Below are positions 6,089-62,083 of a stretch of DNA of 64,000 nt, piece after piece (positions within the stretch are counted from its first letter, which is position 1; each line of letters opens with the position of its first letter). The position numbers and the translations under genes are program-made. The DNA is from Sulfuricaulis sp. (GTDB lineage Bacteria > Pseudomonadota > Gammaproteobacteria > Acidiferrobacterales > Sulfurifustaceae), in NCBI RefSeq assembly GCF_024653915.1, contig NZ_JANLGY010000022.1, positions 1-64,000 on the forward strand, written 5' to 3'. A model generated the notes under the pieces. That model was not told where the DNA came from. It was given only the letters and a program-made list of their open reading frames with translations, and ran no database searches.

Positions 6089-7205
6089 GGATCCGTTCAA
6101 TCGTCCAGTAAATTCCGACCGCGGCAATCAGCGCCGACAACGGCTGCACCAGGCGCGCTCGGTACCAGCTTTTGGTTTTCCACCACAGTCCGATCAGCAG
6201 AAAGGCCGAGATGATCACGGTAAGCTGGCCCAGCTCCACCCCGAGATTGAACGTCAACAGCGCCGTCAGGAATTCAGAGCGCGGCAAACCGATCTCCTGC
6301 AACACCCCGGCGAATCCCATTCCGTGCAGCAGGCCGAAACCGAAGACCACGAATGCACGCCACGGTTTCAATTCCGCCGTGATCATGTTTTCCACCGCCA
6401 CGTACGCAATCGACGCCGCGATCAACGGTTCCACAATCGCGGGTGACAGCGAGACGATGCCGTAAATACTCAAACCCAGTGTAATAGTGTGCGCCACCGT
6501 GAAGGCGGTTACCTGAATCAGCAACGGCTTCCAGCGGATGCTCAACAGAAAAAGCCCGAGCACGAACAGAATATGATCAAGACCCTTGGGCAGGATATGA
6601 GTAAAGCCATGCATGGTGTATTGCGCCGCGACTTCCAGCCGCGTTTTCTGCACCAGACCGACACCCAGAATGTAGGGCTCGCTCTTGGCGCCGTCCTTGA
6701 GCCACAGCGCCACCGTTTCGCCGACGGATACGGCTGGCAGACGCACAATGGATTCGCCGAAATATGCCGCATAGGTCCAATGGAAGACACGTGCCCCCGG
6801 GGGAATGGCTCCACACAAGTGCAAACGCGTCAGCCGTGCGCGCGCCGGATCGCCAACCTCTGGAACAACGAGCGCACACAAGGCTGGCTGCATGCGTGCA
6901 TCGTCAAACAAAATCGAAACACCTTCGAGGTACTGCGGCAGGAACTCGCGGATTTTCCGTTCTAGCACCGCGGACGGCAGTTCACGCAGGCGATTGTAAG
7001 TCTGTGCGTTGGGCGATTCGCTGGTGTCCTTGTGCTGCGGACTCACGCCCGCAATCACCGCCTCCATGTTGGCGCTGATTTCAATGTCGTAGTTCCCGGC
7101 GTTGAAATTCACGGTCGCAATCGCGGGACGGATTTCATGAGCACGCGCGTTGTCCATGCCCACCAGAACAAGCAAGGCAGTCAAAAGTATCGGCAGTCGA
7201 GACAT
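6081..7205 (-). CDS. HupE/UreJ-type membrane protein
   Basis: The 374-aa protein begins with a signal peptide ending near ARAHEIRPA. It continues with an extracytoplasmic region to about residue 190 and ends in six or so hydrophobic helices, with the HupE/UreJ signature GFTHILPKGLDHILFVLGLF. HupE/UreJ proteins are linked to nickel or cobalt uptake for hydrogenase and urease; the long N-terminal domain marks the larger subfamily, whose role is not settled. The start at 7205 is an ATG; a TTG at 7220 is the alternative. It is divergent from the DUF4198 gene. Confidence 0.8.
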   Translation of the reverse strand: MSRLPILLTALLVLVGMDNARAHEIRPAIATVNFNAGNYDIEISANMEAVIAGVSPQHKDTSESPNAQTYNRLRELPSAVLERKIREFLPQYLEGVSILFDDARMQPALCALVVPEVGDPARARLTRLHLCGAIPPGARVFHWTYAAYFGESIVRLPAVSVGETVALWLKDGAKSEPYILGVGLVQKTRLEVAAQYTMHGFTHILPKGLDHILFVLGLFLLSIRWKPLLIQVTAFTVAHTITLGLSIYGIVSLSPAIVEPLIAASIAYVAVENMITAELKPWRAFVVFGFGLLHGMGFAGVLQEIGLPRSEFLTALLTFNLGVELGQLTVIISAFLLIGLWWKTKSWYRARLVQPLSALIAAVGIYWTIERILS

Positions 7206-49501: not shown

Positions 49502-49536
49502 TCCGACAACGCGCGACCGATGAGAGAAAATCCAAC

Positions 49537-50472
49537 ATGACCAAGCTGGCAATCATTCAGGAAGCCCCGGTGTTCCTCGACAAGCACGCCACCATCAAGA
49601 AGGCCGTGGCGCTGGTGGACAAGGCAGCGGCGCAGGGTGCGCAGCTGATTGTTTTCAGCGAGGCATTCATCCCGGGCTACCCGGCGTGGATCTGGCGCCT
49701 GCGGCCGGGGGCAGATTTCAAACTCTCGGAAGAAATCCACTCGCGCCTGCTGGACAACGCCGTGAACCTGAAACAAGACGAGCTGGCGCCGCTGCGCCAG
49801 GCCGCCAAGAAACACAAGGTCACGATCGTCTGCGGCATTGACGAGCGCGACGGCGAGTTAAGCCGCACGACGCTCTACAACACCGTGGTCATCATCGGAC
49901 CCGATGGACAGCTGCTCAACCGCCACCGCAAATTGATGCCGACCAATCCGGAGCGCATGGTCTGGGGCTTCGGCGACGCCACCGGCCTCAAGGTGGTCGA
50001 TACTCCGTGCGGGCGCGTCGGCACGCTGCTGTGCTGGGAAAGCTTCATGCCGCTGGCGCGCTACGCGCTGTACGCGCAGGGGATCGAAATCTATATCGCG
50101 CCGACCTACGACAGCGGCGACGGCTGGATCGGCACCATGCAGCACATCGCGCGCGAGGCGAAGTGCTGGGTGGTCGGCAGCGGATATGCCATCAAAGGCA
50201 GCGACATCCCGGAGGACTTCCCGAAAAAAGCCGAGCTTTATCCCGACGCGCAGGCCTGGGTCAATCCCGGCGATTCCGTCGTGGTCGCGCCCGGCGGCGA
50301 GATCGTCGCCGGCCCGATGCGCAACGAGCAGGGAATTTTATACGCGGACATCGACAGCCAGCGCACCGGGATTGCGAAACGCGCGCTGGACGTCACCGGC
50401 CATTACGCCCGCCCGGATATTTTCCAGCTGCACGTGAACACCCAGCCACAGAGCCCGGTCAAGTTTGATTAG
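49537..50472 (+). CDS. Nitrilase-family carbon-nitrogen hydrolase
   Basis: This 311-aa enzyme has the catalytic triad E42 (VFSEAFIPGYP), K132 (HRKLMPT) and C166 (LLCWESFMPLARY). The FIPGYPAWIW and CWE patterns are those of true nitrilases converting nitriles to acids, though the substrate is unknown. A remnant of a second nitrilase gene lies 2.3 kb upstream. Divergent LysR gene 48047-48946 is the likely regulator. Repeat copy B follows its stop. Confidence 0.92.
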   Translation: MTKLAIIQEAPVFLDKHATIKKAVALVDKAAAQGAQLIVFSEAFIPGYPAWIWRLRPGADFKLSEEIHSRLLDNAVNLKQDELAPLRQAAKKHKVTIVCGIDERDGELSRTTLYNTVVIIGPDGQLLNRHRKLMPTNPERMVWGFGDATGLKVVDTPCGRVGTLLCWESFMPLARYALYAQGIEIYIAPTYDSGDGWIGTMQHIAREAKCWVVGSGYAIKGSDIPEDFPKKAELYPDAQAWVNPGDSVVVAPGGEIVAGPMRNEQGILYADIDSQRTGIAKRALDVTGHYARPDIFQLHVNTQPQSPVKFD

Positions 50473-50479
50473 CCGTAAC

Positions 50480-50608
50480 GAGGTCCGGGACCGTGACTGA
50501 ACGGAAGTGAAAGCTGAACAGGCGTCAGCGCGAACTGTGATCTGGCCGGTTTATAAAACTGCTTAAAAAATAATCCCTCCGTCCCCTTTTATCAGTCCCC
50601 TTTTATCA
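50480..50608. repeat. Diverged repeat, copy B, ending in a 14-bp tandem duplication
   Basis: Positions 50480-50594 align with copy A at 46170-46280. The last part, GTCCCCTTTTATCA, occurs twice in a row (50581-50594 and 50595-50608). Just after this the base composition turns AT-rich, so the tandem repeat marks the left edge of the 50.6-55.7 kb island. Confidence 0.65.
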
Positions 50609-50629: not shown

Positions 50630-51559
50630 TTAAAGCACCACAACACTTTTAGCTAATTTTTTCTTGGCAAACGCAAACGTTAGTAAACTATAACTATTTG
50701 AAAAACTGTCAAAGTAAAATTCGTATGTATCGCCGTTTATATCAGTAAGTTGTTCTGTAGAGCTTCCGACTGGACCACGGGGTCTGTATGTGACATAACG
50801 ACTAACAATTGCGTATATCGCTTCTGCATCAAAATTAGGAAATTGGCGCAGAAACCCAATTGAGCGAATGAAGTGGGTGCAATCTGCTCCATCGGTTCCA
50901 CCGCCAATTTCGGGGTGTTTTGGATGTCGGCTAATTAATCCAACAACAGGAAGTGTGGAGTCACGTTCTTCGACCCAATGCCAAAGTGTAGTCGTTAATG
51001 TATTTTTGTATCGATTTTTAAGTATTTGAATGCTCTTCCAGCTAAGATCCAAGTCTCGCGATTCATTCTTGAATTTATCTAGCAAAAAGAGAAGCTGACC
51101 TGCACCGTAGTTGGCCTCTGCCTCAATCATGTCATGACACTGTGGCTTTAGCGTAATATCGTTGTCTCCTAGTAGAAAATCCCGATGCCACGGAGTAATG
51201 CTATGCGTTATTTCGTGCGCCTGGATGTGGCGATGCTTTAGCTCTGGTACTTCATCATCTATAAGGATACATCGGTCGCTAGGGATCCAGAGAGCATTCA
51301 ATTTTGCTTTTTTTACTACGTCAGTAAAGCGGGTAGGTCTGTCGACCAAAGTCTTCCCTGCAACTTTCAATTTATGGGATATTTCGTCGAGAAGATTTAA
51401 ATCAGTGCTGCTGTAATAATTAAGATCGAGCTTTAATAATGACCTTACATGATTAAGATCTAGTGGTGGCTCGGGATCATCAAGATCGCGCAAGACACGC
51501 GATATTTGTGCTCTTATATCCTCCGCAGAATAATGATCGATTTCGGGCTCATTTTTCAT
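50630..51559 (-). CDS. ImmA/IrrE-type metallopeptidase
   Basis: This 309-aa protein has a zinc-peptidase motif HEITH (H115, E116, H119) and a likely third ligand in the MIEAEANYGAG segment, as in ImmA/IrrE proteins that cleave a partner repressor. It has a roughly 90-residue N-terminal extension and a 130-residue C-terminal domain I do not recognise. Its start overlaps the XRE-type gene by 11 nt; such XRE/ImmA pairs usually act together. AT-rich codon use differs from the rest of the window. Confidence 0.85.
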   Translation of the reverse strand: MKNEPEIDHYSAEDIRAQISRVLRDLDDPEPPLDLNHVRSLLKLDLNYYSSTDLNLLDEISHKLKVAGKTLVDRPTRFTDVVKKAKLNALWIPSDRCILIDDEVPELKHRHIQAHEITHSITPWHRDFLLGDNDITLKPQCHDMIEAEANYGAGQLLFLLDKFKNESRDLDLSWKSIQILKNRYKNTLTTTLWHWVEERDSTLPVVGLISRHPKHPEIGGGTDGADCTHFIRSIGFLRQFPNFDAEAIYAIVSRYVTYRPRGPVGSSTEQLTDINGDTYEFYFDSFSNSYSLLTFAFAKKKLAKSVVVL

Positions 51560-52082
51560 GATCTCCGGTTCGCTCCCTATATTTGCTTAAAAAGGATACA
51601 AATTCATTTAGTCTCTTTCTCTCTTCTTTGCTTAAGCTGGAAAGCTCACCTGAGTTAGCAGCAAATCGTGTCACTGCCTCATCGAGGACTGGATCATTTT
51701 TCACTGATGCAGTAGATATTCTTAACAGTAGCCTAGTTGAAATCTTATAGTACGATGCCAATTGATGGATTGTTCTTGGCTTGGGTATAAACCTCGGATC
51801 ATGTTCAATAGCCTGCAATTCATCTACTGAGACACGGGCGTAGTCTGCTAATTCAGCAATACTGATCTCGTCACGCACTCTTAATTGGCGAATAAGCGTT
51901 CCCAATACTGCATAGTCGGCTCTCGCCTCTTCAAGAAATCTAGCTTCAATTCTTCTTTCAGCAGTCTTAGCAAATTCCCCCTGTAAGTCTACATACTCAA
52001 TTGGAAGCCCCGCATCAGTATCTACATCAGGGTCTTTAGCTATCCGAAATTGCAGCCACTCATTAGTTACGAGCATTTTCAT
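51549..52082 (-). CDS. XRE-like HTH protein
   Basis: This 177-aa protein has a helix-turn-helix at about residues 70-115 (ISIAELADYARVSVDELQAI). The N-terminal 60 residues and the charged C-terminus (KEERKRLNEFVSFLSKYRER) are not recognised. It is the natural partner, and possible cleavage substrate, of the ImmA/IrrE-type protein. Its ATG follows directly on the stop of the GNAT-like gene. Confidence 0.78.
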   Translation of the reverse strand: MKMLVTNEWLQFRIAKDPDVDTDAGLPIEYVDLQGEFAKTAERRIEARFLEEARADYAVLGTLIRQLRVRDEISIAELADYARVSVDELQAIEHDPRFIPKPRTIHQLASYYKISTRLLLRISTASVKNDPVLDEAVTRFAANSGELSSLSKEERKRLNEFVSFLSKYRERTGDHEK

Positions 52083-52724
52083 TTAGCCTCCTTGACTGTT
52101 TGTAGAAAAAAATGTTGCTAATTGCGTTTCTGAGAATTCAAAATAACAAAACGATTGATAGTCACTATCTGGCCCAAAGTCCGTCATACCCAAAACGTCG
52201 CGATAGAATGTTTCAGCACCCGGGAGGGAATGCAGACCAATGCGACCGTTTAATTCTTCAGCAACGCTATAGCTCACGGCAGTTCCAAGTAGAAGTTGTC
52301 CCACACCTTTGTACTTGGCGTCCTCTTTCACCAGACTTGGGCGATTCCAAGGCGCAGTAGCCACACATTCCACATAAATAATGTCAGCACGTTCGTGATC
52401 TGGATGCCGACTAAACTTTCCGCCCTTGCGCACTAGCATCAAACCTTGAGTAGTCCCCGCGCATTCGACAGCGAACATTTGATACAGCAACGGGTTCATG
52501 CGTGTTTGGGCAATCCGCGACCAGTCCCAACGTGCATCCTCTGCTCGTGCGGGGCTAGACCCAGCTGAAGATAAACTAGCTTTGTGTACACTCAAAAAAG
52601 CTGGGCGCCATTCGCGTTCGAAGGCTGCTAAATTGCTCCCGTCGATGCCCAAGAAGAGTTCTGCCCACTCAAGCTCACCTGTTTGGCGATTAAGTAGCTG
52701 ATACTTCCCGAGCAGGGCTTTCAC
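52083..52724 (-). CDS. GNAT-like acetyltransferase
   Basis: This 213-aa protein has the acetyl-CoA-binding pattern Q/R-x2-G-x-G/A as KYKGVGQLLLGTAVSYSVAE and a C-terminal HSLPGAETFYRDVLGMTDFG typical of GNAT folds. The first 60 residues are unusual. The start overlaps the stop of an upstream RHH gene (ATGA). RHH-GNAT pairs can be toxin-antitoxin systems, but most known GNAT toxins are shorter, so that reading is open. Confidence 0.65.
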   Translation of the reverse strand: MKALLGKYQLLNRQTGELEWAELFLGIDGSNLAAFEREWRPAFLSVHKASLSSAGSSPARAEDARWDWSRIAQTRMNPLLYQMFAVECAGTTQGLMLVRKGGKFSRHPDHERADIIYVECVATAPWNRPSLVKEDAKYKGVGQLLLGTAVSYSVAEELNGRIGLHSLPGAETFYRDVLGMTDFGPDSDYQSFCYFEFSETQLATFFSTNSQGG

Positions 52725-52933
52725 AGGACCATTAATTCAGCTTTTTCCTTGGTACTTGGATTTTCAATAAAAACCTTTTCACCACGCTCAAGTCTCTCGT
52801 CAACGGATTGATAAAGTCTTAAAGCTTGTCGGAGCAAGGCTGTCTTTGACATCCCTTTGCGATTGCAAAGCGTCTCGAGAGTCACCATTTCTGGCTCGCT
52901 CAAGTTAAACGTCATCGTACGTTTCTCGAACAT
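52721..52933 (-). CDS. Ribbon-helix-helix protein
   Basis: This 70-aa protein has an RHH DNA-binding pattern: basic/hydrophobic strand RTMTFNLSEPEM, then helices VTLETLCNRKGMSKTALLRQ. The C-terminal tail EKVFIENPSTKEKAELMVL could bind a partner. It is the first gene of the leftward four-gene operon and a candidate repressor of the divergent promoter region at 53009-53053. Confidence 0.75.
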   Translation of the reverse strand: MFEKRTMTFNLSEPEMVTLETLCNRKGMSKTALLRQALRLYQSVDERLERGEKVFIENPSTKEKAELMVL

Positions 52934-53008: not shown

Positions 53009-53053
53009 AATAGCTAATAAGTATATTGACAATACATATTTATTAGCTATTAT
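53009..53053. promoter_or_regulatory. Divergent promoter/operator of the ubiquitin-like island
   Basis: A perfect 12-bp inverted repeat (53009-53020 with 53040-53051) has a 19-nt spacer that holds TTGACA (53026-53031) and a small inner palindrome TATTGACAATA. A -10-like TATTAT at 53048-53053 lies 16 nt from the -35 and overlaps the right arm. A repressor bound here would block rightward transcription. Candidate binders are the RHH or XRE proteins. Confidence 0.65.
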
Positions 53054-53086
53054 ATAGCTACATCAACCTTTCAGAGGTATCCACAA

Positions 53087-53440
53087 ATGACAGACCAACA
53101 TGCAGAAATAGGCTAAAAAAAGGCAAAATCGAAGGAAGAAGAGGATTTCCTCGATGAGATAATCGACCTAGAGGAATACTCGCGTCATGGGAAGCGGCCC
53201 CCATTAGCTCGCGGATACCGCTTCCGCGTAAACGGGGAGCTGATTGTTGTGGAGCAGCCGATAGTGACAGGCCGTGAGGTCCTCACACTTGCTGCTCTTA
53301 CGCCCCCAGAGCAGTACACCTTGCGCGTCAAAATAGCTGGTCAGCCGCCACGTAAAGTCAGTCTGGATGAAAAAGTCGACCTCCGGGCACCTGGAGTGGA
53401 GAAATTCAAAGCCCTACCACGGGACCAGACCGAAGGTTAG
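53087..53440 (+). pseudogene. Multi-ubiquitin-domain protein with in-frame TAA at codon 10
   Basis: The ATG at 53087 has AGAGG 9 nt upstream and reads MTDQHAEIG then TAA (53114-53116). The same frame goes on for 107 residues to 53440: an acidic/basic linker, then a ubiquitin-like domain at residues about 44-117 (YRFRVNGELIVVEQPIVTGR, LTPPEQYTLRVKIAGQPPRK, VDLRAPGVEKFKALPRDQTE). It ends in Gly117 directly before the stop, so no processing would be needed before adenylation. This matches the Multi_ubiq family, here a single repeat. No ATG, GTG or TTG occurs in frame between the TAA and codon 55. Unless TAA is suppressed or is an error, the domain is not made. Confidence 0.85.
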
Positions 53441-53845
53441 ATGGAAAACTTGCGGCGTCAGTTCGACCTTCCCATGGAAGACCAGTTGTTTCTTAACGAC
53501 TATGGTCTTCCGTGGGAAACGATTGTGGACGGCTCCCATTGGGTGCTGATTCACAATTTTGCGACAGATGAAAGATACAACCATCCAAAAGTCACAGCCG
53601 CTATCCGTTTGGAAGCAGGATATCCGCGCGCCGGACTCGACATGGTCTACTTCTTTCCCGCGCTTATTCGAACTGACGGCAAACCGATAAATCGAACGGA
53701 AGGAACACAAGTCATTGCAAACCAAACGTTCCAACGATGGTCACGACATCGAACAGCACAAAACCCTTGGGTCATTGGTCAAGATAATATCGGAACGCAT
53801 ATCGTGCTGATTGAGGATTGGCTCGCCCGGGAATTTGAGCGATGA
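53441..53845 (+). CDS. E2/UBC-like protein without cysteine
   Basis: This 134-aa protein belongs to the bacterial E2/UBC-like families linked to multi-ubiquitin genes. The UBC-type core is visible as VTAAIRLEAGYPRAGLDMVY followed by FFPALIRTDGKPINRTEG, where classic E2 enzymes have the Y-P-x2-P-P turn and then the catalytic cysteine. The protein contains no cysteine at all. Conserved-looking QRWSRHR and GTHIVLIEDWLAREF segments follow. It starts at the base after the ubiquitin-like gene's stop and overlaps the E1 gene by 4 nt (ATGA), so the whole cassette is one operon. It may be a binding or scaffolding protein. Confidence 0.82.
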   Translation: MENLRRQFDLPMEDQLFLNDYGLPWETIVDGSHWVLIHNFATDERYNHPKVTAAIRLEAGYPRAGLDMVYFFPALIRTDGKPINRTEGTQVIANQTFQRWSRHRTAQNPWVIGQDNIGTHIVLIEDWLAREFER

Positions 53846-55245
53846 ATAATCCCTTCACTACGCTTAGCCTGACCGGCGATCAGCATGCTTTATTAATGGG
53901 GCACCTGTACCCTGGCGACAACAAAGAAGCTGTTGCTATTTTGCTTTGTAATCGACGTGCTGGTGATCGACGACACCGTCTTGTTGCACGTGAGATCCAT
54001 TTGATTCCCCACGAACAATGCTCAGTGCGTACGGAAACACAGGTAACCTGGCCAACTGATCTACTTGAACCTATTCTCGAGCGCGCAACAAAGTATGCGC
54101 TCTCCGTCATCAAGATACACAGCCATCCTAGGGGATACCCGAGATTCTCCCAAACAGATGACATCGCTGATCGTGATCTTCTGCCATTGGTCCGAGGGTG
54201 GGTTGAAGCAGATGTAATTCATGGCAGTGTTGTTGTCTTGCCAAACGGCGAGATGTTTGGTCGTGTTCTCGGTTCAGAAAACGACTTCATAAAATTGGAC
54301 TTGATTAACGTGGTTGGTGATGATTTGTATTTTTGGTATTCCGATGCCAATACTTCGGAGATGCCCAGTTTTGTTGCATCTCATGCCCAGCTTTTCGGAG
54401 CAGGAACAACTGAACGATTACGCCGTCTTTCAATTGCGGTAATTGGCTGTTCTGGCACGGGCAGCCCAGTAATCGAACAGCTTATCCGGCTCGGTGTTGG
54501 CGAACTTATTATTGTCGATGATGATCGAATGGATGATCGTAATGTAAACCGCATACTGAACTCCACAATACTTGATGCGAACGAGCACAGTTTAAAGGCA
54601 TTAATGCTCGCACTGGCAATAGATAAGATAGGTCTCGGCACCCGTGTCATCCCAATCTGTCGCAACCTATGGGACCCAGAAGTGATTCGTCAGGTTGCAC
54701 AATGTGACATTGTCTTTGGCTGCATGGATACAGTCGATGGACGCTTTCTGCTTAACACACTAGCTACTTATTACACGATATCGTACTTTGATTTAGGCGT
54801 CCGACTTGATGCCATACCTAATGGTCCGCAAAAGGGCAAAATCAGAGAAGTATGTGGAACGGTCCATTATCTCCAACCGGGGCGTTCCAGCTTAATTAGT
54901 CGTGGTCTCTTTACAATGGAACAAGTTGCCCATGCACGTCTTCGACACACTGATCCTGCTGCACATGAACAGCAAGTAAAGGATGGCTATATAAAGGGCA
55001 TACAAGAATATCGACCGGCGGTAATCAGTGTAAACATGTACATTGCAGCCTTGGCAATAAATGACTTTCTTGCACGATTACACCCGTATAGGGAAGCTCC
55101 AAACTGTAAGATTGCCAGCATTGAAGCTAGCTTAAGTAGTCTGGAGCTCTTTCCGGAACCAGAGGGCACCCCATGTACCGTCCTTCAACAATATGTGGGC
55201 AAAGGCGATGTGACGCCTTTGCTCGATATCGTTGAGCTTAGTTAG
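53842..55245 (+). CDS. JAB-E1 fusion (deubiquitinase-like plus ThiF-like activating enzyme)
   Basis: This 467-aa protein has an N-terminal JAB/JAMM peptidase (about 1-150) with E51, H93, H95, S103 and D106 in the pattern HSHPRGYPRFSQTDD, so a full zinc isopeptidase site. The C-terminal ThiF/E1 domain (about 190-467) has the ATP site IAVIGCSGTGSP (G202, G205, G207) and VDDDRMDDRNVNR. Where many relatives have a P-x2-C-x2-C motif the sequence is QPGRSSLIS (345-353), without cysteine. It should adenylate the ubiquitin-like C-terminal glycine and may also remove the modifier. Confidence 0.88.
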   Translation: MNNPFTTLSLTGDQHALLMGHLYPGDNKEAVAILLCNRRAGDRRHRLVAREIHLIPHEQCSVRTETQVTWPTDLLEPILERATKYALSVIKIHSHPRGYPRFSQTDDIADRDLLPLVRGWVEADVIHGSVVVLPNGEMFGRVLGSENDFIKLDLINVVGDDLYFWYSDANTSEMPSFVASHAQLFGAGTTERLRRLSIAVIGCSGTGSPVIEQLIRLGVGELIIVDDDRMDDRNVNRILNSTILDANEHSLKALMLALAIDKIGLGTRVIPICRNLWDPEVIRQVAQCDIVFGCMDTVDGRFLLNTLATYYTISYFDLGVRLDAIPNGPQKGKIREVCGTVHYLQPGRSSLISRGLFTMEQVAHARLRHTDPAAHEQQVKDGYIKGIQEYRPAVISVNMYIAALAINDFLARLHPYREAPNCKIASIEASLSSLELFPEPEGTPCTVLQQYVGKGDVTPLLDIVELS

Positions 55246-55258
55246 GAGCACATGGTCA

Positions 55259-55618
55259 ATGCATTGGCTCAAGCTACTATTCGACCGACTTTTCCGCAGG
55301 CCTCAGAAAAGAGAGGCTGCCCCATATAGGACTCAATTCATTGAGGGTGCGCTACCAAAACAGATAGACGCCAAGACAATATATGTTACCCAAGAAGATG
55401 GATTCCTTGAACACGTTTCTTTGATTTGTCCATGTGGATGTGGAGAGACACTTCACCTGAATCTGCTTCAAGATGAGCGCCCCTATTGGAACCTTATGCA
55501 ACACCAAAATGGAACAGTTAGCTTACGACCATCCATTTGGCGAAAGTACGGCTGCTACTCTCATTTTTGGATTTTGAGTGGATACATACATTGGTACGAG
55601 CGCGGAGTACCTCCATAA
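55259..55618 (+). CDS. DUF6527 zinc-binding protein
   Basis: This 119-aa protein resembles the DUF6527 family often found at the end of multi-ubiquitin/E2/E1 operons. A probable zinc site is formed by C57, C59 and C61 (ICPCGCGETLHL) with C99 and H102 (YGCYSHFWI). The N-terminus is basic with a hydrophobic patch (MHWLKLLFDRLFRR). Its role is unknown; a ligase-like or target-binding function is speculation. AGGAG lies 9 nt before the ATG at 55259. Confidence 0.8.
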   Translation: MHWLKLLFDRLFRRPQKREAAPYRTQFIEGALPKQIDAKTIYVTQEDGFLEHVSLICPCGCGETLHLNLLQDERPYWNLMQHQNGTVSLRPSIWRKYGCYSHFWILSGYIHWYERGVPP

Positions 55619-55724: not shown

Positions 55725-55797
55725 TCAGGTCTTCATATATATCTCCGCCCCCTGCTTCACGAACTCCACCGCCTTGGCTTCCATGCCCTTCAACGCG
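55725..55797 (-). repeat. thiC 3'-end copy, tail 1
   Basis: The minus strand encodes [20 protein letters not shown] then KT and TGA (55725-55727), matching the end of intact ThiC ([22 protein letters not shown]). It starts one or two bases after the Fic gene's stop. The 46-bp core is 55742-55787. The 106 nt between DUF6527 and this tail contain nothing recognisable. Confidence 0.9.
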
Positions 55798-55798
55798 G

Positions 55799-56404
55799 CT
55801 AGTCTTTGCGGGACTGTTGCGCCAGGCGCGCAAACTCGGCCAACTTGTTGTAATCGCTCTTGTCCGCGGCGCGTAAGGCATCCAGATAGGCCGCCCTGAC
55901 TTCTCCTTGCGGGACTCCGCTCATGCCGCCCCAAGTAAACGGGGGTTGGTGCAGAACCCTCTCCAGCAACAGATCCGTGACCAGTCGCGCGTGGCGACCG
56001 TTCCCGTTCGGGAACGGATGAATCGACACCAGCCGGTGATGGAACCGCCAGGCGATTTCATCCGGGGGATAGGATTTGTGCTCGATCTGCGCCTTGATGT
56101 CCTCGCAAAGCTTGTGCAGCTCGACGCCGATATGCGCCTTCGGCACGCCGATGTTCTTGTCGCTGGTACGAAATTTCCCCGCCCATTTCCACACGCGGCC
56201 GAACATCTGGCGATGCAATTTGCGGATGAAGCCTTCGTCCAGGATGGATTGGGGGCGGGACGTGTTCAGGCCTTGCATGGCCTCGACGATGTTTTCCTGC
56301 TCCAGACGATTGAGTTCTTCCCGGGTGGTGACGTGGGTGGGAATCAGCCCTTCGGCTTCATCCGGATCCAGCGGCGTGGCGCCGGTCGTCCGCGTTTCGC
56401 TCAC
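55799..56404 (-). CDS. Fic-domain protein (mobile mystery protein B)
   Basis: This 201-aa Fic-family protein, of the group named mobile mystery protein B, likely transfers AMP or another nucleotide part to a target. The Fic motif is at residues 129-140, HPFPNGNGRHAR; the acidic metal-binding position of the classic motif (D/E) is N133 here, a variant I recall from this group. The N-terminal PLDPDEAEGLIPTHVTTREE is typical. It follows protein A by 4 nt. Its TAG stop directly abuts thiC tail 1. Confidence 0.9.
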   Translation of the reverse strand: MSETRTTGATPLDPDEAEGLIPTHVTTREELNRLEQENIVEAMQGLNTSRPQSILDEGFIRKLHRQMFGRVWKWAGKFRTSDKNIGVPKAHIGVELHKLCEDIKAQIEHKSYPPDEIAWRFHHRLVSIHPFPNGNGRHARLVTDLLLERVLHQPPFTWGGMSGVPQGEVRAAYLDALRAADKSDYNKLAEFARLAQQSRKD

Positions 56405-56408
56405 GCGC

Positions 56409-56870
56409 TCAGTCCCAGAATGTTTTCGGTATTTTATTCAGCAGGGACACGGCGGCGGTTTCCGTGGCCTTGCCGACTTCGTCTTGCGACAAAGACTGAT
56501 CTTCCAACGCCATGGTGTGCGAGGCGCGCACCATATCCTGCCGGACTTTCTGTCTGGCCTGTTTCAGCAATGTCTCTTTGAGCGTGGTTTTGGGAACCAG
56601 CGCATAGACCAGCACGCAATCCATGGCCTCCGCCGCGCGCCGCAAGGTTTTCAGTGTGGTGGCGCCTGTCGCTTCCAGCCGCTCCATATCTCCAACCCAC
56701 ATTTTGCTGACATCCATACGTTCGCCCAGTTGGCGCCCACTCATGCCGAGCGCGTCCCGGATAGCTCTGATCCATCCTTTTTTAGGTGGCTGCAAATTGC
56801 GCAACGGCACGAACTGGGCAAGGCTTGCATCCAGTTGCGAAAGAGCAGTTTTTTGGTATTTCTTGACCAT
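56409..56870 (-). CDS. HTH protein (mobile mystery protein A)
   Basis: This 153-aa XRE-type DNA-binding protein pairs with the Fic gene. The helix-turn-helix is in IRDALGMSGRQLGERMDVSK with MWVGDMERLEATG. A C-terminal helical part may bind or neutralise the Fic protein, as antitoxins do (inference). The ATG at 56870 is immediately preceded by a 24-bp perfect palindrome, strongly suggesting autoregulation. Confidence 0.88.
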   Translation of the reverse strand: MVKKYQKTALSQLDASLAQFVPLRNLQPPKKGWIRAIRDALGMSGRQLGERMDVSKMWVGDMERLEATGATTLKTLRRAAEAMDCVLVYALVPKTTLKETLLKQARQKVRQDMVRASHTMALEDQSLSQDEVGKATETAAVSLLNKIPKTFWD

Positions 56871-56960
56871 AAAGTAAGTATATATACTTACTTTATATTG
56901 TAAATAGTAAATATATAGATTTACTATTTTAATAATTACGTAAGTATATAAGCTTACAAT
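56871..56960. promoter_or_regulatory. AT-rich palindrome cluster upstream of mobile mystery protein A
   Basis: A perfect 24-bp palindrome (56871-56894) touches the start codon. A second, perfect 11-bp inverted repeat pairs 56902-56912 with 56919-56929. A third, imperfect site around 56939-56957 repeats the GTAAGTATAT half-site. This looks like a set of operators for the HTH protein. Confidence 0.7.
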
Positions 56961-56973
56961 TCAATCGATAACA

Positions 56974-57042
56974 TCAGGCCTTTTTATAAATCTCCGCCCC
57001 CTGCTTCACGAACTCCACCGCCTTGGCTTCCATGCCTTTCTG
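56974..57042 (-). repeat. thiC 3'-end copy, tail 2
   Basis: The minus strand encodes [20 protein letters not shown] then KA and TGA (56974-56976). The 46-bp core 56991-57036 is identical to that of tail 1. It begins about 5 nt after the stop of the 58-aa gene at 57048-57224. Confidence 0.9.
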
Positions 57043-57047
57043 CGGAG

Positions 57048-57224
57048 TTAGCCTTTGCGGGCCTGCTGCGCCAAACGCACAAACTCCAGCAGCTCTTCGG
57101 CTATCACCAATCGTTCTGCGGGTGTTGCGGCGAGAGACGCCTTGAGCTGTGCCTCCTCCACCTCGGCAAAGATGACAGGCCAGAAGGGCGCTGGCGCTTT
57201 ATCCGGGTTTGGTTGGTTTGCCAT
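57048..57224 (-). CDS. Small protein, 58 aa, paralogue of 57318-57491
   Basis: The frame starts MANQPNPDKAPAPFWPVIFA and ends RLAQQARKG. The central EVEEAQLKASLAATPAERL and IAEELLEFVRLA parts align with the neighbour at 57318-57491 (EVKEVELDDALRATPAQRL, LEEALKLAW). TAAGG precedes the ATG. The last residues (FVRLAQQARKG) also resemble the Fic protein's end (FARLAQQSRKD), so the stop region may have been exchanged between modules. The function is unknown; an antitoxin-like role fits its size and setting but is unproven. Confidence 0.65.
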   Translation of the reverse strand: MANQPNPDKAPAPFWPVIFAEVEEAQLKASLAATPAERLVIAEELLEFVRLAQQARKG

Positions 57225-57279
57225 ATGCCTTAGTTTTTAGTCAGCAACCCAGATGCAGCGCCAGCTGAATCCGGGATTC

Positions 57280-57310
57280 AGCCCGGATTTCGTTTCACTC
57301 CATCCGGGCT
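57280..57310. repeat. REP-like hairpin
   Basis: A 9-bp inverted repeat AGCCCGGAT/ATCCGGGCT (57280-57288 with 57302-57310) encloses TTCGTTTCACTCC. This is a common extragenic palindromic element type in proteobacteria, here between the two small genes. Confidence 0.75.
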
Positions 57311-57317
57311 ACGTTTG

Positions 57318-57491
57318 CTACTCTCCTTTGGTGGCGCCAACCATCCACGCTAATTTCAGCGCCTCTTCCAACCAGGCCAAGCGCTGTGCGGGGGTGGCGC
57401 GCAGGGCGTCGTCTAACTCCACCTCCTTGACCTCGTCCCAAGTTGCCGGGTAGAGGCGCTCGTCCGTTAGTGTAGATTTATCGTTAGCCAC
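57318..57491 (-). CDS. Small protein, 57 aa, paralogue of 57048-57224
   Basis: The frame begins at GTG (57491), ANDKSTLTDERLYPATWDEV, and ends WMVGATKGE. It shares E-V-x-E, L-x-ATPA-x-RL and EE-x-L with the neighbouring 58-aa protein. The RLYPATWDEV start is one I have seen in small uncharacterised proteins from toxin-antitoxin neighbourhoods. No enzymatic motif is present. Its start lies 14 nt after the stop of thiC tail 3. Confidence 0.6.
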   Translation of the reverse strand: MANDKSTLTDERLYPATWDEVKEVELDDALRATPAQRLAWLEEALKLAWMVGATKGE

Positions 57492-57505
57492 GCTACTGTC
57501 TGTCC

Positions 57506-57556
57506 TTATTCCTTGCGGTAAATTTCCACACCGGCCTTTTTGAACTCAACCGTCCA
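57506..57556 (-). repeat. Diverged thiC 3'-end copy, tail 3
   Basis: The minus strand encodes TVEFKKAGVEIYRKE and TAA (57506-57508), similar to [15 protein letters not shown] of intact ThiC but clearly more diverged than tails 1, 2 and 4. It begins about 8 nt after the vapC stop. Confidence 0.75.
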
Positions 57557-57564
57557 AAAATCCT

Positions 57565-58020
57565 CTATTTCAATGCTACCTCGATATCGCCCAACCATTG
57601 CACGTCGTAAGAACCCTTCGCCAGTTTCATTACCAGCTTCTCATCCGCGGTGATCAACGGAAGCCGCGTTTGCTTTGATGCGGCGACATAACAGGCGTCG
57701 TAGGCCGTGATCCGGTGTTTCAAGGCAATCTCCAAGGTTTCTTCAGCGATGGCTTGCGCTGGAATCACCGTTAGCCCGAGACTGGTTAAATCACGCAGAT
57801 GCGCCTGAACATCCTTGTCGGGGTATGCCGACCGCTGAACCCATTTCCAAAACACATTGGCACATTCGACGAAGAAAAAATCGGGGACGATCAACTCAGC
57901 ACCATTTTCCAGGGCGAAGCGAGCGAATACCTCTTGGGCCTGAGCGGAAAGCGCCTCGGGAACAAAAATCTTTACCGCCGCGCTGGCATCCACCACCGCC
58001 CGCAACGGGGCGGGGTTCAC
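57565..58020 (-). CDS. vapC: PIN-domain toxin (VapC family)
   Basis: This 151-aa RNase of the PIN fold has acidic residues D11 (AVVDASAAVK), E52 (FFVECANVFW), D108 (TAYDACYVAA) and D126 (LITADEKLV), the complete VapC set. It likely cuts tRNA or rRNA when free of its antitoxin. The GTG start at 58020 overlaps the vapB stop (GTGA); a longer frame to 58062 overlaps vapB and is less likely. Confidence 0.9.
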   Translation of the reverse strand: MNPAPLRAVVDASAAVKIFVPEALSAQAQEVFARFALENGAELIVPDFFFVECANVFWKWVQRSAYPDKDVQAHLRDLTSLGLTVIPAQAIAEETLEIALKHRITAYDACYVAASKQTRLPLITADEKLVMKLAKGSYDVQWLGDIEVALK

Positions 58021-58265
58021 CGGTTGCGGTCCTCGCGGATCAGCTCGGCAGAATCTGTCCAACCGCGAGGGAGCTCGACCTTTTGGGCGCGCCGTCGGAT
58101 GCGATTAATAACGTCCGCCACGCCCTTGCGGGCCTCGCGCGCCTGCACGCCCTGGCTCAAAAGCCGGATGACTTCGGCCGTTACCGAGCGATTCTCTGCT
58201 TCCGCGAGCTTATGGATACGCTTGTAAAGTTTGTCAGGGACGTTGCGTACGTGAAGGGTTGCCAT
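58017..58265 (-). CDS. vapB: FitA/VapB-type antitoxin
   Basis: This 82-aa ribbon-helix-helix protein has the strand-helix start MATLHVRNVPDKLYKRIHKL and second helix SVTAEVIRLLSQGV. The C-terminal WTDSAELIREDRNR would enter the toxin's active site. The start at 58265 is supported by the conserved ATLHVRN beginning. It is translationally coupled to vapC. Confidence 0.88.
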   Translation of the reverse strand: MATLHVRNVPDKLYKRIHKLAEAENRSVTAEVIRLLSQGVQAREARKGVADVINRIRRRAQKVELPRGWTDSAELIREDRNR

Positions 58266-58346
58266 GTTTGGTTTCCGCGCTGTTCGTCCAGACAGTTTAG
58301 ACCAGGGTGGTTGCAAAGTGCAACCAAGCTGTTCAAAACGGTGCTG

Positions 58347-58433
58347 CCATGAAAATCGAACACAACCTATCCGATTTTCATGGTACGGCCGGAGGTCTCC
58401 ATCCTAAACTACTAATTTGGCAATAATTAGTAG
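58347..58433. promoter_or_regulatory. Two inverted repeats upstream of vapB
   Basis: A perfect 12-bp inverted repeat (58347-58358 with 58372-58383) and a perfect 9-bp one (58409-58417 with 58425-58433) lie in the 204 nt between vapB and thiC tail 4. They may be VapBC operators, or remnants of the mobile unit's end. Confidence 0.5.
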
Positions 58434-58469
58434 AAAAATAGTAGAAAAACCATATGGGACATTTTTAGA

Positions 58470-58570
58470 TTACGCTTTCTTATATATCTCCGCCCCCTGC
58501 TTCACGAACTCCACCGCCTTGGCTTCCATACCTTTCTGAAGCGCCTCCACTTCCGAGAGCTTCTGGCTCA
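58470..58570 (-). repeat. thiC 3'-end copy, tail 4
   Basis: The longest copy: the minus strand encodes SQKLSEVEALQKGMEAKAVE then [12 protein letters not shown] and TAA (58470-58472). Intact ThiC has [32 protein letters not shown]. The core 58487-58532 differs from tails 1 and 2 at one of 46 positions. It begins within the stop codon region of the TrpD2-like gene. Confidence 0.92.
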
Positions 58571-59701
58571 AGTTGCGCGCGCGAGGCGTTCGAGCGCGGC
58601 GCCGTTGTCCAGCACGGCCCGCACGACATCGGCTGCAACGCGGAGCGAATCATGGCGCTTGAGGTGAAACAGACATAGCGCGGCGGCGCTCACCAAACTG
58701 TTGCGCACCGGACCGGGCTGGCCGGCGAGCGCCTCGCTTCCCTCGGCCGCCGCGGCCTGGGCGATGGCGGCGGGATCGATTGTGACCGCGACGTCATCGC
58801 CGCCCTCCGATCCGCTCGCAAGTCCCGCTGGCAACGGCGCGGCGCGCAGCGATTGCTCGATGGCGAAGTCGGCCGGCGTGAAATCGAGCGCGTGTTCTGC
58901 GCCACCGACGTGGTAATAAAATGCCTTGCCGCTCTGGCGCAGCGACGGCAGCACCCCGCCCTCCACGCCGCGCACGATCAGCGCCGAGTCGAAACCCGCG
59001 TGGCGCGCCAGCAGCGCGTAAATGCGTGGATAAGGTTTGTGCACGTAGCCGGTCACGAGATGCGTGCGTTGCCGCCCGCGGATCGGCCCGGCCAGCACCT
59101 CGGCCGTGGTGATCGCCGGGCGCTTGACGATGAGTGTGCGGAAATCGGTGAGCCGGTGGAGCTTGGGGCAGAAAACCTTCTGATCCACGTAGGCCCAGCC
59201 GATGGCCGGATCGGCGAGACGCGCGGCGGCCTCCTCGACCGACAGGTCCACCGCCAGCCCGGCGGCGCGCAACACCTGGCGGTGGGTCACGCCGAATTTC
59301 GGTCCCATGCGCTCCACGCCGTGGGTGACGCAGGCCACGCCGCAGGCGGCCAGCACCGCCGGCAGGAACGGCGAGACCGGCAAGGTGCGGGTGAAGCCGT
59401 CGTAGGGGTCGGCAAGATCGAGCACCTCGTCCACGTTCGCGGTGACCGAGTGCGTGGCGTCACGGATCGCCTGCAGCACGCCGCGGTTCTCGTCGTCAGT
59501 CTCGCGCTTCATGCGCAGCGCAATCAGGAAGATCCCCGCCTGCACCGGGTCCACGAGCCCGTCGAGGACGTAACGCATGCCTGCGCGCGCCTCCTCGTAG
59601 GAGATGTCCTTGCTGAGTTCGGGACCGGTGGCGATGCGCTTGAGGATCGAGCGCATGGTGACGGTGGGGTTGTCGGGAAGATTTGACGCAGGCATATCCA
59701 T
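58568..59701 (-). CDS. Anthranilate phosphoribosyltransferase-like (TrpD2/YbiB) protein
   Basis: This 377-aa protein of the TrpD/glycosyl transferase family 3 fold has an N-terminal helical domain (SKDISYEEARAGMRYVLDG, GIFLIALRMKRET) and a larger alpha/beta domain with GVERMGPKFGVTHRQVLRA. The GTGN-type PRPP loop of true TrpD is replaced, and the family is better matched by TrpD2/YbiB, which bind nucleic acid. The start at 59701 has AGGAG 8 nt upstream. Its stop lies at the junction with thiC tail 4. Confidence 0.78.
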   Translation of the reverse strand: MDMPASNLPDNPTVTMRSILKRIATGPELSKDISYEEARAGMRYVLDGLVDPVQAGIFLIALRMKRETDDENRGVLQAIRDATHSVTANVDEVLDLADPYDGFTRTLPVSPFLPAVLAACGVACVTHGVERMGPKFGVTHRQVLRAAGLAVDLSVEEAAARLADPAIGWAYVDQKVFCPKLHRLTDFRTLIVKRPAITTAEVLAGPIRGRQRTHLVTGYVHKPYPRIYALLARHAGFDSALIVRGVEGGVLPSLRQSGKAFYYHVGGAEHALDFTPADFAIEQSLRAAPLPAGLASGSEGGDDVAVTIDPAAIAQAAAAEGSEALAGQPGPVRNSLVSAAALCLFHLKRHDSLRVAADVVRAVLDNGAALERLARAT

Positions 59702-59712
59702 ACGGGCAACTC

Positions 59713-60027
59713 CTAAGTCAGACAAATCAGGATGTCGTCGCCATCCAGGCGGACGGGATAGGTTCGCAAATTTTCTTCCGCCGGGTCGTCGAGAACCTGG
59801 CCGGTGCGGAGGTTGAAGCGGCTTCCGTGCAACGGGCACTTGACGGTGTCGCCCTTGAGAAAGCCCTTCGACAGCGAGGATTCCTCGTGGGTGCAGGTGT
59901 CGTCGGTGGCGTAGTAACTGCCGTCCACGTTGGCGAGCAGGATGCGCCGTCCGTCGAGGTCGACGCGTTTCATCTTGCCGGGCATCAGTTCGCCGCGCTG
60001 GGCGATTTTCACGAAATCCTGGGGCAT
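59713..60027 (-). CDS. Rieske-type [2Fe-2S] ferredoxin
   Basis: This 104-aa small Rieske protein has cluster ligands C45 and H47 (DTCTHEES) and C64 and H67 (VKCPLHGSRF), the C-x-H/C-x2-H pattern of NirD/ferredoxin-type Rieske domains. It could carry electrons for a partner enzyme, but no oxygenase is present. It lies 25 nt after thiC and 11 nt before the TrpD2-like gene, so it is probably in the thiC operon. Confidence 0.9.
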   Translation of the reverse strand: MPQDFVKIAQRGELMPGKMKRVDLDGRRILLANVDGSYYATDDTCTHEESSLSKGFLKGDTVKCPLHGSRFNLRTGQVLDDPAEENLRTYPVRLDGDDILICLT

Positions 60028-60052
60028 CAGCGCGGCGTTACGAACGGTGCGG

Positions 60053-62083
<2,031 letters not shown>

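Follow-up and report, generated by a model that had tools for sequence, protein, structure and literature searches.

The closest described relatives of the genes studied here are the Bub (bacterial ubiquitination-like) operons, and the structures of the Bub proteins of Citrobacter (PDB 9ea4, 9ea5, 9ea8, 9eae, 9eav) were reportedly determined by Ye et al. 2026. In the E2-like protein BubB, the chemistry probably runs through a serine and an oxyester. While structures are known, the biological role of the Bub operons is unsettled. According to the accessible parts of PMC13373217, 219 of 544 Bub operons are associated with the controllers CapH+CapP or CapW, and in the former the peptidase CapP is activated by single-stranded DNA and cleaves CapH.

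The window (the whole stretch of 64,000 nucleotides analysed here, from Sulfuricaulis sp.) carries four tightly packed genes at 53087-55618 on the plus strand, coordinates which the first-pass annotation had given and which hold by the sequence and by Pfam:

53087..53440, plus strand: bubA, a single Ubl domain with a C-terminal Gly and an in-frame TAA at codon 10
53441..53845, plus strand: bubB, Prok-E2_E, cysteine-free, with a WSRHR motif
53842..55245, plus strand: bubCD, a JAB peptidase domain fused to a ThiF/E1 adenylation domain
55259..55618, plus strand: gene of a DUF6527 protein with four near-invariant Cys, a Ser and a His

The Pfam matches were all above the curated cut-offs: Multi_ubiq (6e-17), Prok-E2_E (3e-35) and DUF6527 (5e-21), and in the JAB-E1 fusion protein ThiF (4e-23) together with Prok-JAB (6e-9). 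Among PDB entries, the E1 protein matched BubCD of Citrobacter along its full length (1.5e-90), the E2-like protein matched BubB (5e-24), and the Ubl protein matched a multi-ubiquitin protein (2e-11) and BubA 155-229 (1e-9). Judged by these PDB matches the operon is a Bub operon, and the window adds a new member to a named family: it holds a Multi_ubiq-type Ubl gene with a C-terminal Gly, though in a broken frame, homologues of BubB and BubCD, and after bubCD a DUF6527 gene, the product of which we take to be BubE. The bubB gene follows directly after the TAG of bubA and both are in one frame; the DUF6527 gene probably starts with the ATG at 55259, 55232 being the mechanical first start codon. 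The first-pass annotation had proposed a complete set of Ubl, E2, JAB-E1 and DUF6527 genes in an AT-rich island, and both points are borne out, the set by the Pfam and PDB matches and the island by a GC content of 45.4% at 50.6-55.7 kb against 59.7% in the remaining window. Its view that the biochemical role of this DUF6527-containing type was not settled is outdated in that the type is a named family, Bub, for which structures of BubA, BubB and BubCD have been solved.

On the far side of the island thiC is found at 60053-61942 (minus strand), with copies of its 3' end at 58470-58582, 56974-57086 and 55725-55837 and a degenerate one at 57513-57552 (four matches, against none in 100 shuffles). 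Each copy in the 55725-60165 region bounds a small cargo. A pair of mobile mystery protein B (Fic) and A (HTH) genes at 55799-56870, above the NCBIfam cut-off, lies between thiC-tail copies and has 11-bp/33-bp AT-rich repeats upstream (56869-56957), and a small RHH and PIN-like gene pair, named by eye, has copies on either side (57565-58316, minus strand). From this arrangement the region looks like a serial insertion hotspot, with the Bub island just past the last copy. Partial thiC-tail matches also occur in four genomes of the genus (G082, G369, G372, G375); at one locus (L123, G372 C132, 2186-5449) a nitrilase gene, 87% identical in DNA to window 49533-50517, is followed by a 627-aa ORF and then a thiC tail, in the place that the Bub island takes in the window. 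No tRNA was found as an attachment site in 40-64 kb, and no 16S was found in the genome assembly.

No cysteine is present in BubB of the window, and among 87 homologues no alignment column has Cys in more than 14%; S101 and H103 are conserved in all 87 and kept here. In BubCD, the JAB residues H94, H96, S104 and D107 and the GxSGTGS loop of ThiF are conserved and present, as are other near-invariant residues, and the DUF6527 protein has kept the invariant Cys57, Cys61, Cys99, Ser92 and His102 and the near-invariant Cys59 and Ser101. When BubA is a separate (split) protein it ends exactly in Gly in 44 of 54 cases, so that trimming is needless for these, yet the DUF6527 gene still follows; its job is therefore probably not precursor processing alone. 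A structural model of the DUF6527 protein (pLDDT 88.7) had no convincing PDB match (best Foldseek E 0.66, best VIA-align Z 3.4), a result that carries no information on a new fold. The sequence search of PDB gave a chance match only, and no paper under DUF6527 was found in the literature searched.

A nine-sequence E1 alignment was used to fetch loci from genome contigs, and the best 80 by E1 similarity were kept. These span many phyla by record titles, and 78 of them have Ubl, E2, E1 and DUF6527 in this order on one strand; one of the exceptions is cut by a contig end (L086) and in the other only the E1 was found in a 7.5 kb region (L042). The DUF6527 gene comes after bubCD in 79 of the best 80, and plasmid loci with full context have kept the order and strand of the four genes in eight cases out of eight. 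The idea that the four-gene order is conserved elsewhere, already present in the first-pass annotation, was thus supported by genome and plasmid loci alike. Viral contigs gave two loci with a BubCD relative, of which L099 is a short match at 25%.

Divergently from bubA, the window has a control block of four genes:

52721..52933, minus strand: RHH (CopG-type) gene, first of the control block
52083..52724, minus strand: GNAT-fold acetyltransferase-like gene, with a 4-nt overlap with the RHH gene
51549..52082, minus strand: HTH (CapH-like) gene, the HTH from near residue 60
50630..51559, minus strand: ImmA/IrrE (CapP-like) metallopeptidase gene with a HEITH motif

By PADLOC the peptidase is CapP-like (2e-11) and the HTH protein, weakly, CapH-like (4e-4), and the match of the peptidase to CapP in PDB (7t5t) was weak (0.004). 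The CapH+CapP arrangement, an HTH protein and an M78 peptidase with HExxH divergent from the immune operon, is present. The operon had previously been suggested to share its regulatory region with an XRE/ImmA module; the link holds, but it is the RHH and GNAT genes, which had gone unnoticed, that adjoin bubA, with XRE and ImmA/IrrE behind them.

A model search of 95 Bub loci detected CapP-like genes in 47, CapH-like genes in 32, and RHH with GNAT in six. GNAT matches were present in 51 plasmid records, and 26 GNAT loci were compared, consisting of 18 of these records, three genomes and five loci found Bub-first, the window among them. RHH, GNAT, CapH-like and CapP-like genes stand in this order in 22 of the 26 loci (L142 with a peptidase fragment only), though the 22 blocks are not independent, e.g. 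L144/L152/L153, L154-L156 and L157-L159. The full block is lacking in L148, L160, L161 and L163, and when two later GNAT loci are included it is found in 22 of 28 overall. Of the later two, L169 has RHH, a broken GNAT and a CapH-like gene, and in L168 (4838-9301) RHH, GNAT and a Peptidase_M78 protein of 338 aa adjoin a Ubl-like, a JAB-like and a ThiF gene, each of them separate. Genome searches starting from GNAT were positive in 3/398, 2/385 and 3/369 genomes of overlapping sets, six genomes in all: in four the blocks are beside Ubl-type operons (G000, G205, G057, G659), one has no block (G713), and in one GNAT is broken and no peptidase was found (G1010). Phage records gave no GNAT.

The block sits beside several kinds of operons. 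Bub operons adjoin 13 of the 22 blocks (window, L020, L054, L095, L096, L144, L146, L152, L153, L157, L158, L159, L164), and operons of Multi_ubiq, ThiF and DUF6527 adjoin two (L147 and L162, the latter also with DUF6791). The neighbours are E1-N/ThiF, JAB and Metal_CEHH in L143, and in L145 an operon judged Ubl-type from its ORFs by eye. Three blocks are beside type III CBASS, which in L154 consists of cyclase, HORMA, TRIP13 and SAVED by PADLOC and in L155 and L156 is CBASS by annotation. In a Marinibacterium plasmid (L141, 5798-11327) a same-strand Cas9 gene comes downstream of the peptidase gene (PADLOC 6e-46), and the block of L142 has restriction genes nearby. The GNATs of the CBASS blocks are 53-55% identical to the GNAT of a Bub block (L146), while the window GNAT shares 31-46% identity with the GNATs of other Bub blocks. 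That CBASS GNATs are closer to L146 than the window GNAT is to any Bub block speaks for exchange between systems, and it is on these CBASS cases that a swapping of the block would rest. The correlation of GNAT and E1 identities is 0.70 (78 pairs from 13 Bub loci), so that blocks and operons have in part moved together and share much of their history.

Between the RHH gene and bubA there are two further candidate features:

53011..53060, unstranded: operator candidate, TAGCTA boxes at 53011, 53044 and 53055 (33 and 11 bp apart)
53026..53053, plus strand: sigma-70-like promoter candidate for bubA, TTGACA-N16-TATTAT, overlapping the operator candidate

Sigma-70-like sites number three in the stretch against 1.0 expected in shuffles, which is weak alone, and the exact TAGCTA pair at 53044-53060 lies over the -10 element of the probable bub promoter. 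With at most one mismatch, TAGCTA-N5-TAGCTA is present at 19 of the 22 blocks; the exceptions have two (L095) or four mismatches (L096 and L143). None of the 82 Bub loci that lack the block has it, and the rate in 1100 shuffles was 0.18%. Scanning the box spacing gave peaks at gaps of 5 and 16, which corresponds to an 11-bp period. L168, found afterwards, has an exact TAGCTA pair (at 6806) between its RHH and Ubl-like genes. In the whole genome the exact box pair occurs at the bub promoter site only, and with up to one mismatch there were two sites versus four forward for the reversed control, so the loose pattern is not enriched. Because the boxes go with RHH-GNAT rather than with CapH-like genes at large, the RHH protein is the best candidate for binding them. 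Most likely the block as a whole is a transferable controller of immune operons, and probably one that responds to DNA damage.

It is possible, but in our view unlikely, that RHH and GNAT are a TacAT-like toxin-antitoxin pair hitch-hiking between regulator and operon, outside the control circuit. As in TacAT and AtaRT, an antitoxin-like RHH gene is followed by an overlapping gene for a protein of GNAT fold, here predicted by a model (pLDDT 76.5) with a best match of Z 12.8 (rmsd 3.3, 167 aligned). The model also aligns to the tRNA-acetylating TacT3 (Z 11.6, rmsd 3.1, 155 aligned), and its Foldseek matches include TacT1 and AtaT2; TacT3 is tied with many other GNATs and the top structural rows are ordinary GNATs, so that the model does not decide between toxin and regulator. 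The RHH protein, which is short, matched RHH_1 alone at E up to 0.1 and no DUF1778 model, and may thus be unlike the antitoxins of the known pairs. The window pair differs in belonging to a block of four genes beside immune operons, in which the accompaniment by CapH-like and CapP-like genes noted above and the boxes that go with the pair to CBASS and Ubl promoters argue for a controller role. In the cyanobacterial GNAT relatives (L148, L160, L161, G713), the other block genes are absent by the models used.

A further reading, which we find doubtful, is that Bub in the window is a modification system that serves stress or housekeeping functions and does not take part in phage defence. In the accessible parts of PMC13373217, phage protection by Bub is not shown and wider stress responses are considered possible. 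However, the distribution is patchy (PF14462 in 8/369 genomes of the class), the operon lies in an AT-rich island, and the neighbours of its relatives include AbiV, AbiE, AbiJ and dCTP deaminase genes. In addition, the controller is common to Bub and CBASS, which suggests that cells handle Bub like an immune system.

The bubA gene of the window begins with ATG at 53087, reads MTDQHAEIG, meets a TAA at 53114-53116 (codon 10) and is then open to the TAG at 53438-53440, ending in ...DQTEG. Position 53087 is very likely the true start because close relatives, e.g. L010, L023 and L027, begin with MTD- too. Of the 87 loci that could be assessed (L093, which runs off its contig, was left out), 86 have a start codon ahead of the Ubl core and after the preceding in-frame stop, any ATG, GTG or TTG being accepted; the window is the sole exception. 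As no start codon precedes the Ubl core, the BubA tag is probably not made, or is poorly made, and the pathway is therefore probably off or very weak in this strain. In the first-pass annotation bubA was taken as a sound gene for a Ubl protein ending in Gly; the Gly end stands, but the premature TAA had been overlooked and the gene is not an intact ORF. A programmed, conserved stop is ruled out, the window being alone among the 87 loci. A readthrough fusion of BubA and BubB, suggested by the shared frame on both sides of the bubA TAG, was also rejected: of 88 loci, 34 have the two as one open frame, 14 (window included) have them split but in frame with each other, and 40 have them split in different frames, which gives no conserved readthrough.

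We read the stop as a recent loss of the tag gene, with a sequence error as the main rival. If the TAA had arisen in sequencing or assembly, or were a minority variant, the operon would be intact and working, and this would fit with the four genes having no further lesion and all tested key residues, and with the position of the stop in the poorly conserved N-terminal tail of BubA. Among the nine genus genomes searched, a BubCD of clear similarity is in two, the window's own and G373 (49% identity). Still, we hold such an error to be rather improbable in a genome that is 99.78% complete in 31 contigs. An indel of one base within the A7 run is ruled out as its source since the frames agree on either side and an indel would not mend them, and the error, if any, would have to be a substitution. 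Least probable of all is a stop that is tolerated or used, with low-level BubA from readthrough or from near-cognate restart (ATA/ATC, codons 24 and 25), since such a stop is in no homologue examined and the first normal in-frame start past it, GTG 53249, is inside the Ubl core, even though codons 24 and 25 come after a purine-rich stretch, a restart there would keep the Ubl fold whole, the core is intact from residue 34 of P0001 and the tail length varies among BubA proteins of relatives. Loss of the tag gene remains the favoured reading, and the nonsense codon, if true, would give a natural example of tag loss preceding enzyme loss in an immune operon.

Our main reading, with a probability of about 0.72, is that the window holds a Bub operon silenced by a divergent RHH-GNAT-CapH-like-CapP-like controller, in which the bubA nonsense codon has probably left the pathway off or very weak. 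From the observed gene identities, gene order, residues, stop, repeated block and boxes we infer the following regulatory and chemical steps. The TAGCTA boxes over the bub promoter would be occupied by a repressor, for which the RHH protein is the most likely candidate, possibly together with the HTH protein. Upon DNA damage, single-stranded DNA would activate the CapP-like peptidase, which would cleave the CapH-like protein and free the promoter. The E1 half of BubCD would then adenylate the C-terminal Gly of BubA, and BubB would hand BubA to targets, probably via the invariant Ser101 because BubB has no cysteine, while the JAB half, and perhaps the DUF6527 protein too, would remove or process the tag. 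The acetyltransferase may tie derepression of the immune operon to acetyl-CoA or translation, e.g. by acetylating the repressor or tRNA. A controller with a candidate operator common to Bub and CBASS promoters would offer a handle on the timing of switch-on.

Compared with Citrobacter Bub, the window operon is alike in its BubA Ubl, its E2-like BubB and its BubCD with the JAB-E1 fusion, and the DUF6527 gene also comes after bubCD there, as seen in a plasmid relative (L017). In that relative a Ubl repeat lies upstream and BubA is fused to the E2, whereas the BubA of the window has one Ubl domain in a separate ORF, with a Gly end and a nonsense codon; the controller differs as well, L017 having an unnamed protein of 368 aa together with a winged HTH. 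No paper was found on the combination of RHH-GNAT with CapH/CapP in a search that took in few subscription papers, so the block may be described already, and the words 'acetyltransferase' and 'ribbon-helix-helix' are absent from the accessible parts of PMC13373217. As far as those parts go, CapK+CapS and CapW are likewise mobile controllers of diverse immune operons, but they consist of kinase/STAS or WYL proteins and have no RHH, GNAT or M78 peptidase. The CapH+CapP controllers of CBASS and Bub (Lau et al. 2022, cited in PMC13373217) are closer, with an HTH protein and an M78 peptidase divergent from the immune operon. From what is accessible of that source, the window differs in its longer HTH protein, with about 60 residues before the HTH, and in the RHH-GNAT pair between the HTH gene and the operon; it also has the TAGCTA boxes, absent from the 82 Bub loci without that pair. 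The control block therefore appears to be a variant of the CapH+CapP kind, in which the RHH-GNAT addition is apparently new. On balance we lean towards regarding RHH-GNAT-CapH-CapP as a further, unnamed class of immune-operon controller beside CapH+CapP, CapK+CapS and CapW, acting on TAGCTA boxes 11 bp apart and traded among Bub, other Ubl operons and type III CBASS.
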